Of a DNA stretch of 56,643 nt, positions 22,795 to 28,905 are shown one piece after another (the stretch's first letter is position 1; the number at the start of each line of letters is the position of its first letter). Source of the DNA: Clostridia bacterium (GTDB lineage Bacteria > Bacillota > Clostridia > Christensenellales > CAG-138); the NCBI GenBank assembly GCA_017525875.1, contig JAFXSG010000038.1, forward strand, positions 1-56,643, read 5' to 3'. The notes beneath the pieces were generated by a model that had not been told where the DNA came from, did no database searches, and saw only the letters and a list, made by a program, of their open reading frames with translations. The position numbers and the translations under genes were made by a program.

Positions 22795-22828
22795 AAACGG
22801 AGCTTCGCCGCGGCGGGGCTCCGTTTTT
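22795..22828 (+). terminator. terminator of thrS
   Basis: A 9-bp stem AAACGGAGC/GCTCCGTTT (22795-22803 with 22818-22826), with inner GC pairs, followed by TTTTT. Confidence 0.85.
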
Positions 22829-22851: not shown

Positions 22852-22880
22852 TGGACAGAGCACGGAAATGCTGTTATAAT
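22852..22880 (+). promoter_or_regulatory. promoter of the 22973-29813 gene group
   Basis: TGGACA (22852-22857), 17-base spacer, TATAAT (22875-22880). It is the only clear promoter before the membrane protein and the double kinase. Confidence 0.75.
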
Positions 22881-22972: not shown

Positions 22973-23824
22973 ATGAGCAGATCGAGACTGAGACTTTTGA
23001 TGATATCATTGATAACGCTTGCGGCCTGCACCGTGGGCTTCCTGACATACCTCATCCTGCACCGCATCTCGATCCGGAACACGGAACCCGAGATCACCTG
23101 CGAGACGGACGTGATCCGCGTCAGCGTCAACGCCCCGCGCGAGGAGCTGCTTGCGGGCGTCACCGCCTTCGACGCCGAGGACGGGGACCTGACGGATTCC
23201 GTCATCATCGAAAGCATCTCGCAGTTCGTCGAGAAGGGCAAATGCACGATCACCTACGCCGTGTTCGACTCCCGCAACAAGGCGGCGACGGCGTCGAGAA
23301 CGCTCTACTACACCGATTACCATTCCCCTCGTTTTGAACTGCTGACCGACTTCATCTATTCGATCGGCACCGCCGTGAACCCGCTTGCGGGCATTCGCGC
23401 GTACGACGTTTTCGACGGCGACATAACCTCGAGGATCTCCATGACCACGGTAGGGTCGGACGAATTCTCCGGCGTGGAGTACCCGGAGGTCGAGTTCAGG
23501 GTCATAAACAGCTGCGGCGACGTGGCGACCCTCCGCGTGAATATCGTCACCGAGGAGCGCGCGTCGACGAACGTCCCCGTCATCAACCAGTCGAACTATC
23601 TCGTCTACATGAACGCGGGCGAAAAACTCGATCCGCTCGTGAACGTGGAGAGCATATACGTTTCGAGGCAGACCTATCCCATCGACGATTACGGCCGCGA
23701 CAGCCTGATGGCGGACACGAGCGGTTTCGACCCGAACAAACCCGGCCTTTACCGGATCCCCATCTACTGCGAAGCGGGCGACTACGTCGGAAGCACCGTG
23801 CTGTACGTCATCGTCGAAGGCTGA
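22973..23824 (+). CDS. membrane-anchored protein with Ig-like repeats
   Basis: 283 aa from ATG 22973 (GGGAG five bases upstream; a GTG at 22895 gives 26 more residues). A short basic start and one hydrophobic anchor (LLMISLITLAACTVGFLTYLI, written from about residue 8) precede an extracellular part of two bacterial Ig-like / cadherin-like modules of the DUF5011 type: DAEDGDLTDSV and DVFDGDITSRI are the repeating signatures. It lies 31 bases upstream of the double tyrosine kinase and under the same promoter, so it may belong to the same export or cell-envelope system. Its exact role is not readable. Confidence 0.7.
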   Translation: MSRSRLRLLMISLITLAACTVGFLTYLILHRISIRNTEPEITCETDVIRVSVNAPREELLAGVTAFDAEDGDLTDSVIIESISQFVEKGKCTITYAVFDSRNKAATASRTLYYTDYHSPRFELLTDFIYSIGTAVNPLAGIRAYDVFDGDITSRISMTTVGSDEFSGVEYPEVEFRVINSCGDVATLRVNIVTEERASTNVPVINQSNYLVYMNAGEKLDPLVNVESIYVSRQTYPIDDYGRDSLMADTSGFDPNKPGLYRIPIYCEAGDYVGSTVLYVIVEG

Positions 23825-23855: not shown

Positions 23856-26800
23856 ATGCCTAAGTTCACCGAAAGCCGAAAAACCGAAGAGAAAAAGCCG
23901 AGCGCGAACCTCGAAACGATCGTTCTCCAGGTCCTGAGGAACTGGTGGCTGATCCTTATCGGGACGCTCATTTCCGTTATGCTGTTCTACGTGATCGTCA
24001 CGGAGACCTATCACCAGAAGTATTCCTCCACCGCCACGTTCGTCGTCAGCGGCAAGGGCTCCGTCACGAGCACGATGCTGACCGATATCGACACCGCGAA
24101 GAGCATGACGCAGGCGTTTGCGTACGCCCTCTCCAGCGACATACTGATGGAAAAGGTCGAGGAGGCGGTCGGCATCGACGAGTTTACCGGCAAGGTCGAA
24201 ACGAGCCAGCTGCCCGAAACGAACATCCTTTCGCTGACCGTCACGGCGGACACGCCGGAGCTCGCGTTCGACGTTATCAACGCGATCATCGAGAACCACC
24301 ACGTCGTTACCGACAGCATGATCCGCAACGCCGCTATGTACGTTCTGATGAAGCCGACGGTCCCCAAGGCCCCGGTCTCTCCGATCAACAGGCGCAGCAG
24401 GGTCATCACCTATTCGCTCGCGGCGATGTTCACCATCATCGCCGGGATCGTGCTTTCGACCGTATTCTCCAAAAAGATATTCACCGGCAGTGATTTTGAC
24501 AACAAGGTCGGCGGGCTCGAGAGGCTCGCGTCGTTCGATCACGAATCGAGCAGGAGGCGAAGCAGGCTGCCGCTCTTTATAAAACGCCAGCGAAACCGTT
24601 CGGGCAGTCTGCTCGTGAGCAACCCGACGACGAGCTTTTCCTATACCGAGACCTTCCGCCTGCTGCAGACCAGGCTGCAGGCCCTGATGAAGAACAGGGG
24701 CTACAAGACCCTGATGATAACCGGCGTTGAGGAGGACGAAGGGCGCTCGACCGTCGCCGCGAACCTCGCGCTGACCTTCGCAAGGGAGAACAAGCGCGTG
24801 CTGCTCGTTGAGGCGGATATGCGCGAAGCCTCGCTCGCGAAGATACTCGACTGCGAAAAGGACCTCACCGTTTCGATCGACGAATACATCATCGGCGAAA
24901 GGGGCGGGGAGCTCCTGCCCACGCCGGATTACGCAAAGAACCTGAGCCTGCTCATCTGCAAACACAGCGTTCCGGATTTTGAGAACCTGCTCATCTCCGC
25001 CCGTATGCAGAGCTTCATGGAGGAGGCCGCCAAATACTTCGACTATATCGTGATCGACACTCCGCCCATCGCGGTCTCAAGCGCCGCGGAGTACTGCGCC
25101 GAAAGCTGCGACGCCGCCGTCATGGTCGTGCGCAGGGGCTTTGCCTCGGCGCCGCGCATCGAGAGCGCGCTGTCCACCCTCTCGGCCTCGACGGAGGTGC
25201 TGGGCTATGTCATGAACGACATGGTCCACCTGCCCCTCTTCGGCTCCGGAGCGGAAGCGGGCGGCACAGGCTACGACCGCTACGGCCGCTACGGCCGATA
25301 CGGCAAATACGGCAGATACGGCCGCGGCTACGGCAATTACGGACGGTACGGCAAGTACGGCCCGGGCGGCTACGGGCATTACGGCAGCTACGGCAGCGGC
25401 GACGCTCAGGAAGCGGAGCCCTTGGCAGCCGCGGAGCCGGCGGAGTACGAGAGCTATGAGCGCAGGCGGCCGAGCGCGGCGGAAAGAAGGGCGCAGGCCG
25501 CCCGTGAAAACGCAGCGCGCGAAGACGCAGCGCCGGCGGAGGACGCCGACGAGAGCATGACCGAGGAGCCGGAGATCGATATCGGCAAGTTCCTTGTCGA
25601 TACCTTCCGCACCTTCTTCCGCATCTTCTGGCTGCCGCTCGGCCTTGCGGTCCTGCTCTCCGTGATCCTGTGCCTGAAGCTCGACCGGAACTATTCCCCG
25701 AGATATACGTCGAGCGCGACGTTCACGATCAGCGCGGTGGGCGTTTCCGGCACGGGCGCCGAGGAATACAACAAAAACGTCACCAAAAGGCTCTCGAGGG
25801 TCTTCCCGCACGTTCTGACCAGCGGCATACTGAACGACCTCATCTGCGAGGACCTGCAGCTCAAACGCATGCCCGCTTCGCTTGCGGCGCACGTGGAGGG
25901 CGAGACCACGCTGTTCACGCTGGAAGCGACGGCACGAAAGCCCGAGAACGCGCTGATGGTGCTTGAATCGGCGATCCGCAAATATCCGCAGATCACGAAC
26001 TTCGTTATCGGCAACACGAACATGACTCTGCTTCGCGAGCCCACGCTGCCCTCAAAGCCGATAAACCCGAAGAACTACGCCGCGCAGATAGCGGTCGGCA
26101 CGAGCATTGCCGTGCTGATCGGCCTCGCGGCCGCGATAATCATCAATATGACCCGCCGCACCGTCGGCGGCACGCAGGAGATACGAGACATCCTGAGCGT
26201 GCGCTGCATCGGTACGCTTCCCTTTGAAAGAGCCGCCAAAGAGGGCAGGCAGAGCCCGATCCTCAGCATTCAGGACAGCGGCATCTCCAAGGACTTCACC
26301 GATTCCATCAACCTGATCTGCCGCCGCCTTATCAAATCCGCGGATGAGCACGACGAAAAGGTGATCCTGTTCGCGGGCTCCATACCGGGCGAGGGCAAAT
26401 CCACCGTCGCGCTGAACACCGCATACGCGCTCGCCGCGTCGGGCAAGATGGTCGTGTTCATCGACTGCGATATCCGAAAGCCTTCCACGATCAGCGAGCT
26501 GCCCGAGATCCGCGAAAAGGGCCTCGTAGAGTACCTGCGCGGCGAAGCGGATATCGGCGAGATCGTCTCCCGCATCGCGGAGAACCTGTACGCGATCCGC
26601 GGCTCCAAGAAGAACTACAACGCGCCCGAACTGCTGCGCTCCGAAAAGATGCGGCGGCTCGTTGAGGCGATGGCGCAGAACGCGGATTTCGTGATCTTCG
26701 ACACTCCGCCCAGCGCGATCCTTGCGGACTCGCAGATCCTCTCCGAATTCGCGGACTGCGCGGTCTACGTCGTCTGCCAGGACTACACGATGAAGAACAG

Positions 26801-27116
26801 CCTGATCGCCGGCGTGAACAACCTTGCAAACACCGGCATACGCTTCATGGGCTACGTGCTGAACAACGCCGGCTCGACCGATACGGGCTACAGCTACGGC
26901 AAGCACAGGAGCTCCGGCTACGGCAGCTACGGCGGCTACGGCAAATACGGAAAGTACGGCGGCAGGGGCAAGTACGGGAATTACGGCGGCTACGGCAAGT
27001 ACGGAAAGTACGGCAAATACGGCAAATACGGCCGGTACGGCAGCTACGGCGGCTACGGAAACTACGGGAACGAAGGACCGAAGCCGGGCCAGACCGACAC
27101 GGACGACAGCGAATAA
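23856..27116 (+). CDS. double Wzz/BY-kinase fusion with two Tyr-Gly tails
   Basis: 1086 aa made of two complete units of the polysaccharide co-polymerase/tyrosine-kinase type. Unit 1: Wzz domain with membrane segments at ~31-48 and ~185-203, kinase at ~280-460, and a Tyr-Gly tail (~473-512, 13 Tyr). Unit 2: membrane segments ~594-608 and ~743-766, kinase ~830-1000, tail ~1012-1070 with 18 Tyr. The unit 2 P-loop is canonical (PGEGKST, Lys 848) and its Walker A' is FIDCDIRKP. The unit 1 P-loop reads EEDEGRST: the Lys is Arg 297 and the Pro-Gly is lost, and Walker A' reads VEADMRE, so unit 1 looks like a pseudokinase. Such proteins control length and export of surface polysaccharide; the Tyr tails are the autophosphorylation sites. 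No polysaccharide genes flank it here. Confidence 0.95.
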   Translation: MPKFTESRKTEEKKPSANLETIVLQVLRNWWLILIGTLISVMLFYVIVTETYHQKYSSTATFVVSGKGSVTSTMLTDIDTAKSMTQAFAYALSSDILMEKVEEAVGIDEFTGKVETSQLPETNILSLTVTADTPELAFDVINAIIENHHVVTDSMIRNAAMYVLMKPTVPKAPVSPINRRSRVITYSLAAMFTIIAGIVLSTVFSKKIFTGSDFDNKVGGLERLASFDHESSRRRSRLPLFIKRQRNRSGSLLVSNPTTSFSYTETFRLLQTRLQALMKNRGYKTLMITGVEEDEGRSTVAANLALTFARENKRVLLVEADMREASLAKILDCEKDLTVSIDEYIIGERGGELLPTPDYAKNLSLLICKHSVPDFENLLISARMQSFMEEAAKYFDYIVIDTPPIAVSSAAEYCAESCDAAVMVVRRGFASAPRIESALSTLSASTEVLGYVMNDMVHLPLFGSGAEAGGTGYDRYGRYGRYGKYGRYGRGYGNYGRYGKYGPGGYGHYGSYGSGDAQEAEPLAAAEPAEYESYERRRPSAAERRAQAARENAAREDAAPAEDADESMTEEPEIDIGKFLVDTFRTFFRIFWLPLGLAVLLSVILCLKLDRNYSPRYTSSATFTISAVGVSGTGAEEYNKNVTKRLSRVFPHVLTSGILNDLICEDLQLKRMPASLAAHVEGETTLFTLEATARKPENALMVLESAIRKYPQITNFVIGNTNMTLLREPTLPSKPINPKNYAAQIAVGTSIAVLIGLAAAIIINMTRRTVGGTQEIRDILSVRCIGTLPFERAAKEGRQSPILSIQDSGISKDFTDSINLICRRLIKSADEHDEKVILFAGSIPGEGKSTVALNTAYALAASGKMVVFIDCDIRKPSTISELPEIREKGLVEYLRGEADIGEIVSRIAENLYAIRGSKKNYNAPELLRSEKMRRLVEAMAQNADFVIFDTPPSAILADSQILSEFADCAVYVVCQDYTMKNSLIAGVNNLANTGIRFMGYVLNNAGSTDTGYSYGKHRSSGYGSYGGYGKYGKYGGRGKYGNYGGYGKYGKYGKYGKYGRYGSYGGYGNYGNEGPKPGQTDTDDSE

Positions 27117-27162: not shown

Positions 27163-28905
27163 ATGGACTATCGCAAGGAATACAAGAGCTGGCTCGAACA
27201 GCCCGCGATCACCGAGGCGGAGCGCGCGGAGCTCGCCGCGATCGCCGATGATGAAAAACAGCAGGAGGACAGGTTCTATACGGAGCTGGAGTTCGGCACC
27301 GCCGGGCTTCGCGGCGTGCTCGGGATGGGCACAAACCGCATGAACGATTACGTAGTCCGCCGCGCGACGGCGGGGCTTGCGGCATACCTTCTGCGCATTC
27401 CCGGAGCGAAGGACAAGGGCGTTGCCATCGCATACGACTCAAGGCGCTGTTCCGATCGCTTTGCGGAGGTCTCGGCGCGCACGCTCGCGGCGTACGGCGT
27501 GAAGAGCTTCCTCTATTCCACGCTCCACAGCGTGCCCCAGCTTTCGTTCACGGTGCGCGAGCTCGGCTGCGAAGCGGGCGTCGTCATCACCGCCAGCCAC
27601 AACCCGCCGGAATACAACGGCTACAAGGTCTACTGGTCCCACGGCGGCCAGTGCGGCCCCGCGCAGGCGGACGAGATCCTCGCGTCCATCCGTGATTTCG
27701 GGTATTTCGATACGCAGATCATGGACTTTGACGAGGCGAAGGAAAAGGGCCTCATCACCATGATCGGCGAAGAGGTGGACGAGATCTATTATAAAAAGAC
27801 CATGAGCGTGATGCTGAACCCGGAGCTCGTTCGGGAGGAAGCGCCGAAGATGAAGGGCAGTTTGGTCTATTCGCCCCTCCACGGCAGCGGCCGCGTCCCG
27901 GTGACGACGATCCTCGGGCGCATCGGCATCAACAATCTTTACGTGGTAAAGGAGCAGGAGGAGCCGAACGGCGATTTCCCGACCGTCAAGGCGCCCAATC
28001 CGGAGGACCCGGACGCTTTCGTTCTCGCGATGGAGCTCGGGCGGAAGGTCGACGCCGGAATGCTGTTCGCGACCGATCCCGATTCCGACCGCCTCGGCGT
28101 TGCCGTGCGGCTCGCGAACGGCGATTACCGAGTGCTGACCGGCAACCAGATCGGCTCGATCCTCATCTATTACATCCTCTCCGAGCTCAAGGCGCAGGGC
28201 AGGCTGCCGGAGGACGGCTTCGTGGTCAAGTCCCTCGTAAGCACCGCGCTTGCGGACGTCATCTGCCGCAGTTTCGGCATCGAGATCCGCCACGTGCTGA
28301 CCGGCTTCCGCTTCATCGCGGAGCAGATCGACCTTGCGGAGGAGAGCGGTCAGGGCAAATTCCTCTTCGGCTTTGAGGAGAGCTACGGCTTCCTTTCGGG
28401 CGGCTTTGCGCACGATAAGGACGCGGTGCTCGCCGCGATGCTCGTTTGCGAGGCGGCGATCGTTTACGCCTCCCGCGGGAAGGGACTTATCGACGTTCTC
28501 AACGAGATCTACGAAAAATACGGCTACTTCATTGAAAAGACCAAGTCCTACACGCTCAAGGGCAAGGAGGGCATCGAGCGCATCGCTCACGCGATGGCGG
28601 CGCTGAGAGAAACGCCCCCGACGGCGTTCGGCGAGGCCGAGCCCATCCTCATCCGGGAGGACTTCAAGATCAACGAAAAGGTCGACTGCGCGAGCGGCAG
28701 CGTCGGAGAGATCGGCCTGCCGGCGTCGAACGTGCTGCGCTACACGCTCGGGAACGACGCGTGGGTCGTCGTCCGCCCGAGCGGCACGGAGCCGAAGCTC
28801 AAGCTCTACGTCGGCGCGGCGGCGGAAAGCGAGCAGGCGGCAAACGAGCGCATGGAGCGCATCATGGCCGAGGGCGATAAGATACTTAAGGAGCTGCTGA
28901 AATGA
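27163..28905 (+). CDS. pgcA: phosphosugar mutase (alpha-phosphoglucomutase, PgcA type)
   Basis: 580 aa, alpha-D-phosphohexomutase superfamily. The phosphoserine loop is TASHNPPEYNGYK (near residue 146), the metal loop DPDSDRLGV, the sugar-binding loop FGFEESYGF, and the phosphate-binding loop VRPSGTEPKLKLYV near the C-terminus. It interconverts glucose 6- and 1-phosphate and may also serve mannose phosphates. It supplies glucose 1-phosphate for UDP-glucose, envelope polysaccharide and glycogen. It follows the double kinase by 46 bases on the same strand and overlaps the next lipoprotein gene by four bases. Confidence 0.94.
   Translation: MDYRKEYKSWLEQPAITEAERAELAAIADDEKQQEDRFYTELEFGTAGLRGVLGMGTNRMNDYVVRRATAGLAAYLLRIPGAKDKGVAIAYDSRRCSDRFAEVSARTLAAYGVKSFLYSTLHSVPQLSFTVRELGCEAGVVITASHNPPEYNGYKVYWSHGGQCGPAQADEILASIRDFGYFDTQIMDFDEAKEKGLITMIGEEVDEIYYKKTMSVMLNPELVREEAPKMKGSLVYSPLHGSGRVPVTTILGRIGINNLYVVKEQEEPNGDFPTVKAPNPEDPDAFVLAMELGRKVDAGMLFATDPDSDRLGVAVRLANGDYRVLTGNQIGSILIYYILSELKAQGRLPEDGFVVKSLVSTALADVICRSFGIEIRHVLTGFRFIAEQIDLAEESGQGKFLFGFEESYGFLSGGFAHDKDAVLAAMLVCEAAIVYASRGKGLIDVLNEIYEKYGYFIEKTKSYTLKGKEGIERIAHAMAALRETPPTAFGEAEPILIREDFKINEKVDCASGSVGEIGLPASNVLRYTLGNDAWVVVRPSGTEPKLKLYVGAAAESEQAANERMERIMAEGDKILKELLK

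Follow-up and report, generated by a model that had tools for sequence, protein, structure and literature searches.

The contig analyzed here, 56,643 nucleotides of a Clostridia bacterium (JAFXSG010000038.1 of assembly GCA_017525875.1; hereafter the window), encodes on its forward strand, at 23856..27116, a single protein in which two complete units of the Wzz/bacterial tyrosine kinase (BY-kinase) type, here called A and B, are joined end to end. Unit B holds a full BY-kinase catalytic site and unit A does not, leaving one full site per chain. The fusion is real and conserved within the genus, not an artifact. Unit A has the residues expected of a pseudokinase and appears to be held under constraint. 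We propose that the protein is a class 2 polysaccharide co-polymerase (PCP-2) and autokinase of the Wzc/CapAB kind, in which a live unit B and a structural pseudokinase, unit A, alternate in a ring that passes through a phosphorylation cycle, an account that we hold to be evenly poised between right and wrong.

Two Wzz/BY-kinase units on one chain

The gene, defined by its reading frame, by hydropathy and by its orthologues, is one open reading frame with an ATG start and no internal stops. As the initial annotation had proposed, its 1086-residue product is built of two units with the same layout: one hydrophobic segment precedes the outside part and another follows it, and a BY-kinase domain and a Tyr-Gly tail come after. 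Hydropathy places the transmembrane (TM) segments of unit A at residues 31–49 (23946..24002) and 183–201 (24402..24458) and those of unit B at residues 590–608 (25623..25679) and 745–763 (26088..26144); these and all features below lie on the forward strand. By profile matches and alignments, the kinase-like domain of unit A, a predicted pseudokinase, spans residues 259–455 (24630..25220), and the kinase domain of unit B, with canonical P-loop and Walker motifs, spans residues 811–1005 (26286..26870).

Both kinase domains belong to the expected family. The TIGR01007 (eps_fam) model matches the whole protein at 215 bits, against a cut-off of 108.05; by half, A scores 107.9 bits, just below the cut-off, and B 109.0, and in a scan of the genome the A and B stretches reach 109.7 and 112.5 bits, both above it. 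Chains of solved Wzc and CapB structures also match both domains in sequence comparison. The Pfam Wzz model (cut-off 25.5 bits) matches half A at 26.8 bits and the whole chain at 24.8 bits, below the cut-off, and finds no match in half B. When the two halves are aligned with hhalign, the profiles of their outside and TM parts match at 99.5% probability, and both outside parts are Wzz-like. The PCP-2 architecture, two TM segments around a Wzz-type outside part with a joined BY-kinase, is present twice per chain. Identity between the two units of one chain is 16–22% in the outside/TM parts and 24–32% in the kinase domain, low enough to indicate that the duplication is old.

The tails, at residues 473–513 (25272..25394) and 1012–1071 (26889..27068), contain 13 and 18 Tyr, the counts originally given, and the second provides the Tyr-rich C terminus characteristic of BY-kinases. 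At 26918–27071, the DNA of the unit B tail consists of 9-bp repeats (about 17 copies) nested in 27-bp repeats. The YG count per tail ranges from 7 to 30 among the fused orthologues, a wide spread of the kind expected of repeat slippage. In one other genome of the genus, a short open frame of 80 residues (G010:C36:3361-3504) gives a match to the unit B tail and may encode a small YG-rich protein. A phase-separating role for these tails, raised in the initial annotation, is speculation.

The catalytic site is complete in unit B and degenerate in unit A

The first P-loop had been read as having lost its Lys, and this is borne out. Unit A has EDEGRST, in which Arg297 (codon 24744..24746) aligns, among orthologues and the chains of solved structures, to the Walker A Lys column. 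Three of the Wzc chains carry Met in that column, the substitution of the published inactive K540M construct (described in the available parts of PMC11986026 and PMC8285477). Unit B has the canonical P-loop that was claimed for it, PGEGKST, with Lys848 encoded at 26397..26399. In Walker A', unit A reads VEADMR, with Glu319 (24810..24812) at the position of the first Asp, and unit B reads IDCDIR, with both Asp kept (the first being Asp870). Both units have the Walker B Asp (401 and 949). Thus, the full set of Walker A Lys, two Walker A' Asp and Walker B Asp is found in B and not in A, and from its sequence, unit A is most simply a kinase-like domain that would lack activity, i.e. a pseudokinase.

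The initial annotation also counted the loss of Pro-Gly from the first P-loop as a sign that unit A is dead. This argument does not hold because, among the relatives described below, 37 first units that keep the Lys also lack Pro-Gly before GK, reading ENEGK, EHEGK or ENDGK; the loss is uninformative about activity.

In unit A, Gly-Arg-Ser/Thr-Thr and the Walker B Asp are kept in all eight genus members that have the locus. The Walker A' Arg is lost in seven of the eight, the copy in the window retaining it, and the Asp aligned with Asp958 of unit B is lost in all seven fused proteins. A curated "KGGVGR-motif variant AAA ATPase" family weakly matches both halves.

The fusion is conserved and followed the loss of catalytic residues

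We searched 11 genomes of the genus, including the window's own (G000). The fused frame lies on one contig in six of them (G000, G003, G004, G006, G007 and G010). A seventh case is G009, where unit A is open into the first TM segment of B until the contig ends and B lies on another contig. In G001 the two units are separate genes with a one-base overlap, and no copy of this type was found in G002, G005 or G008, assemblies that are 82, 68 and 95% complete. All eight members with the locus have the Arg and Glu in unit A and the Lys and both Asp in unit B, so the claim of a catalytic and a catalytically degenerate half on one chain is supported by the orthologues. On the trees of both units G001 falls outside the seven fused members, whose group has support of 100/99 in each, and again 100/99 on a unit 1 tree built without the trait columns. 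Because G001 branches outside the fused group yet already has Arg and Glu, the loss of catalytic residues predates the fusion.

It had been anticipated that close relatives with two separate genes and intact P-loops in both would reveal an assembly or local fusion artifact. Such pairs do exist (13 of 13 pairs of the present type in two other genera of the family), but the conclusion does not follow: with the fusion present in seven genomes of this genus, two-gene pairs with Lys in both units look ancestral instead.

A hidden second product made by internal initiation was considered and rejected, as starts in the linker are not conserved among the six contiguous fused genes. Only G000 (TTG 523 and ATG 568) and G010 (GTG 611) have linker starts behind a Shine-Dalgarno-like sequence; G003, G004, G006 and G007 have none. 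Loci for the same protein are also found in metagenome assemblies named Clostridia, Clostridiales or Bacillota, two of which are labeled water buffalo abomasum and sheep omasum.

Tandem pairs of the same two units occur across Clostridia

The search was then widened to 103 genomes of the family and to samples from the order (395 genomes), class (391) and phylum (398), with a cut-off of E 1e-40 in these last three; the sets overlap. At class level, loci were fetched for 19 of the 28 matching genomes besides the window's own, and three new genomes at phylum level were left out. The fetched loci yielded 48 pairs with both units readable, 21 of them of the present type (seven fused and 14 unfused). 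This count leaves out a cyanobacterial pair (L058) and two BY-kinases of G636, which fall outside the unit-1/unit-2 groups, two loci with unit 2 only at contig ends (G034 and G799), and two with unit 1 broken or cut short (G691 and G050).

Among the matches listed in the family, order, class and phylum searches, the fused frame occurs only in this genus. An apparent second fusion in G642, an open frame of 966 residues, proved to be two frames separated by a stop. First and second units form two separate groups (support 97/86 and 99/94). In a wider tree, built quickly, without an outgroup and with long branches in many places, the SH-aLRT values are 92 for unit 1 and 82 for unit 2, and three unpaired unit 2s group with the unit 2s. 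We take the two groups to reflect one old duplication, and the tandem two-gene pairs to be the probable source of the fusion. Of the 32 unfused pairs examined, 23 have a unit 2 start with a Shine-Dalgarno sequence ahead of it at −20 to +15 bases relative to the end of unit 1, which suggests coupled synthesis of the two units; seven of the remaining nine have no start by this pattern, and in two it lies 36 and 187 bases off.

Loss of catalytic residues in these pairs is seen only in unit 1. Its Lys is absent from 11 of 48 pairs: the eight of this genus, G053 (L109), G032 (L105) and the second pair of G745 (L161, G745:C42). The three losses outside the genus fall in other genera and another family, each together with loss of a Walker A' Asp. 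All 11 Lys-less unit 1s lack one Walker A' Asp, and all 37 that keep the Lys have both. Unit 2 has the Lys in 48 of 48 pairs and both Asp in the 47 that are readable there. On a unit 1 tree built without the trait columns, the Lys state changes at least three times and fusion arises once.

Constraint on unit A and a changed interface motif

Mean kinase-domain identity among the seven fused proteins is 62.7% for A and 64.4% for B. Ratios of nonsynonymous to synonymous substitution (dN/dS) in five genome pairs are 0.09–0.43 for the kinase domain of A and 0.14–0.35 for that of B, at dS values of 0.6–2.0 that are partly near saturation. These figures argue that unit A is under constraint and is not decaying.

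In CapB, half of the octamer interface involves an EX2RX2R helix (available text of PMC3795738). Every unfused pair of this type, 14 in all (12 from genus g23, plus G001 and G013), has ERR as the motif residues of A and DR[RK] as those of B. In the seven fused proteins, A has ERQ and B has lost the first Arg. The interface motifs of both units were altered on the branch where the fusion arose.

The Ig-like companion gene and its neighbors

The gene upstream of the fused one (22973..23824) encodes a single-pass membrane protein, here called IgMP, whose outside part is immunoglobulin (Ig)-like (PF16403, E 2.1e-8, and sequence). Its likely start is the ATG at 22973 after GGGAG, the listed reading frame beginning at GTG 22895. 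A sigma-70-like promoter, TGGACA-17-TATAAT, precedes it at 22852..22880; with 11 of 12 positions matching, it was the best of six found in a pattern scan (shuffle mean 2.5). Just before this promoter, at 22795–22826, is a terminator-like hairpin, behind what we take to be a threonyl-tRNA synthetase (ThrRS) gene.

A relative of IgMP lies upstream of 45 of the 48 tandem pairs, and in the other three the contig begins within 125 bases of the unit 1 frame. Of the 45, three served as queries and another, G089c, is fragmentary because its contig ends there. At loci with a single BY-kinase domain the count is 0 of 19; this figure leaves out loci cut by contig ends (G034, G049, G799 and the second half in both G004 and G009), G691, a broken locus where the Ig-like gene is present, and the weak hit G002x. 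The Ig-like protein may be an unrecognized part of tandem BY-kinase machines. We found no open-licence literature that links an Ig-like protein with a tyrosine kinase under DUF5011, the only name that was searched.

Downstream, 46 bases from the fused gene and possibly on the same transcript, is an open reading frame (27163..28905) that, from its translation, we presume to encode a phosphoglucomutase/phosphomannomutase-like enzyme; the same neighbor is found at all seven fused loci, the window's own included, and in G001. The surrounding genes resemble, by our recognition of their translations, those for ThrRS, phosphoglucomutase, an exonuclease and dapF.

The matching phosphatase that the initial annotation proposed to look for is present in the genome, although away from the fused locus: a single CpsB/CapC gene on contig G000:C37. 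A low-molecular-weight phosphatase was not detected in the same genome at E 0.001. Across the collection, CpsB/CapC adjoins 17 of 48 pairs, and a LytR-CpsA-Psr gene lies beside one of the pairs. The window's genome also has a second, unfused pair (L037, G000:C21:91000-110000) that keeps the P-loop Lys in each unit; genes for EpsG, a cytidylyltransferase, LicD and a glycosyltransferase come after it. The second pair, before exopolysaccharide (EPS) genes, and the CpsB/CapC and LytR-CpsA-Psr neighbors of relatives hint, by gene context, at a possible role of these machines in polysaccharide chain length or export. An ATP-binding cassette (ABC) transporter gene precedes this second pair, and similar ones are found close to the pairs of L105 and L114. 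In L106, a gene near the pair has a weak S24-peptidase match, below the cut-off.

Discussion

The fused protein resembles several known systems, each in part. Like Wzc and Etk, the PCP-2 proteins of Gram-negative bacteria, it carries a Wzz part, two TM segments, a BY-kinase and a Tyr tail on one chain. Those proteins have one unit per chain and form a ring of identical kinases, whereas the fused chain has two non-identical units, one of them catalytically degenerate, with short outside parts and with 13 and 18 Tyr in its tails; the tail Tyr reported as phosphorylated in E. coli K30 Wzc number five (PMC11986026, PMC8285477, in part). It also resembles CapA1/CapB1 and CapA2/CapB2 of S. aureus and PtkA/PtkB of B. 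subtilis, where a single genome encodes one active BY-kinase and one inactive one. The inactive member (CapB1, and PtkB as cited) has been suggested to act as a pseudokinase, and the S. aureus pairs, as the accessible text describes them, lie at different loci with their own modulators and are not fused together (PMC3795738). Like EcpK/EpsV and HfsB/HfsA, unit A is a BY-kinase fold without catalytic residues, kept in what is probably a polysaccharide pathway, and PCP chains joined to a pseudokinase, such as SMc01795, are cited as well (PMC12004946, in part). Inactive BY-kinases, and scaffold pseudokinases either stand-alone or joined to a PCP, are thus already published to the extent that these texts cover them (PMC3795738, PMC12004946). 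The closest relatives are the tandem pairs of Clostridia, such as that on G000:C21, which have the same two units and the same upstream Ig-like gene but, unlike the fused chain, are two genes, with the P-loop Lys of unit 1 intact in 37 of 48. We found no open-licence literature on a two-unit BY-kinase chain, or on tandem BY-kinase pairs as a family.

In Wzc, each protomer inserts its Tyr tail into the active site of its neighbor, sequential phosphorylation destabilizes the octamer, cycling with a dephosphorylated octamer has been proposed, and the inactive K540M form is an octamer (available parts of PMC11986026 and PMC8285477). A fused chain could alter this cycle as follows. Two old, non-identical tandem units would have been joined into one chain, with unit B as the kinase and unit A as a pseudokinase kept for its structure; A would contribute a Wzz segment and a pocket, along with a helix at the interface and another Tyr-Gly tail. 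An eight-unit ring in which A and B alternate would be built from four chains. The tail of A would enter the live site of B and become phosphorylated, and the tail of B would dock in the dead site of A; with A tails at live sites and B tails at dead ones, phosphorylation would break only half of the contacts, loosening every second one. The ring would then cycle between octamer and A–B pairs, never reaching single units, the CpsB/CapC phosphatase would reset the cycle, and the Ig-like membrane protein, we infer, would be a third, outside component. The covalent A–B linkage and the altered interface motif fit a permanent pair. The composition of the ring, the routing of tails and the cycle of disassembly are the parts that we would infer from Wzc; a built-in hetero-unit ring, as the initial annotation envisaged, is plausible.

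A number of observations weigh against this account. The partial saturation of dS blurs the estimate of constraint, and in the nearest pair by whole protein (G000–G003) unit A is evolving somewhat faster, with kinase identity of 66.0% versus 75.4% for B and dN/dS of 0.43 versus 0.32. Erosion of the interface motif is not special to the fusion: full ERR is found in unit 1 of only 15 of 48 pairs, and 13 pairs of another type have EKA or EKS, are unfused and have the Lys intact. Three losses in unit 1 against zero in unit 2 are few events, suggestive and not significant alone. Two rings, or a ring of B only with A outside it, would also fit the sequence data. An Arg in the P-loop need not abolish nucleotide binding, as the curated KGGVGR-motif family illustrates. 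Finally, the fused locus stands beside housekeeping genes and not glycosyltransferases, and in the DNA examined no CpsB/CapC gene was found beside any of the 21 pairs of this type (two of them have no upstream DNA).

Several other explanations can be considered. First, unit A could be a pure scaffold, as has been proposed for EcpK, contributing its Wzz part and stabilization while its pocket and tail stay outside the phosphorylation cycle and B signals alone. This has some appeal because the pseudokinases EcpK and HfsB are proposed to be scaffolds (PMC12004946, in part) and because unit A, too, is without the Lys and one Walker A' Asp. As described in the available text, EcpK is stand-alone, has neither Walker motifs nor a Tyr tail, and is proposed to work without a live kinase, and the EcpK/HfsB subfamily is set apart by the same features (PMC12004946). 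In the seven fused proteins, in contrast, unit A still has the Walker B Asp, the other P-loop residues and a tail of 10–30 Tyr, and it has a live partner; pocket residues and a tail would be costly to keep if neither were used. We regard this explanation as possible but doubtful.

Second, unit A could have remained a kinase that is active or binds ATP, with Arg taking the place of Lys in an unusual P-loop and the halves differing in substrates or regulation. Conservation of Gly-Arg-Ser/Thr-Thr and the Walker B Asp in all eight genus members, the existence of the KGGVGR family and the constraint on the domain would all accord with this. It seems unlikely, because a Walker A' Asp is lost in all 11 Lys-less unit 1s and in none of the 37 Lys-keepers, because the Walker A' Arg (in all but the window's copy) and the Asp958-aligned Asp have gone as well, and because the K540M mutant of Wzc is inactive (PMC11986026, PMC8285477, in part).

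Third, the system could be a regulated membrane tyrosine-phosphorylation system not devoted to polysaccharide, with the fused copy signaling to other proteins. BY-kinases can phosphorylate other substrates, and the neighbors of the fused gene, presumably housekeeping in type and not glycosyltransferases, would suit such a role. The Wzz parts are conserved in both units, however, and the second pair of the same genome precedes EPS genes, which makes this quite improbable. Last, that the locus is an assembly artifact or a decaying pseudogene is scarcely credible: near relatives do have two-gene forms with Lys in both P-loops, but open fused frames in six genomes and one more cut by a contig end, with the same downstream neighbor, constraint on unit A and no conserved internal start, led us to reject it.

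The account of an alternating A/B ring can be extended, more tentatively, to the tandem pairs as a whole. The Ig-like protein, unit 1 and unit 2 might form an obligate three-part machine with an alternating hetero-octamer across a branch of Clostridia, in which unit 1 has been freed from catalysis repeatedly and unit 2 never; in one genus the machine would have been locked as a ring of four chains, with the unit 1 sites turned off for good and phosphorylation able only to halve the ring, never to dissolve it. We think this less probable than not. Catalytic loss in unit 1 only and the Ig-like companion gene point to a heteromeric class of these machines. In Wzc and CapB rings the subunits are identical, so that none can be changed on its own, and this makes it difficult to study how phosphorylation controls polysaccharide length. 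A natural chain that fixes the order of one dead and one live site would offer a ring in which mutation separates the donor of a tail from its acceptor. Tandem duplication of BY-kinases also appears outside this group: the cyanobacterial contig L058 has two Wzc-sized BY-kinase frames in a row, with the P-loop Lys in both, a separate event.

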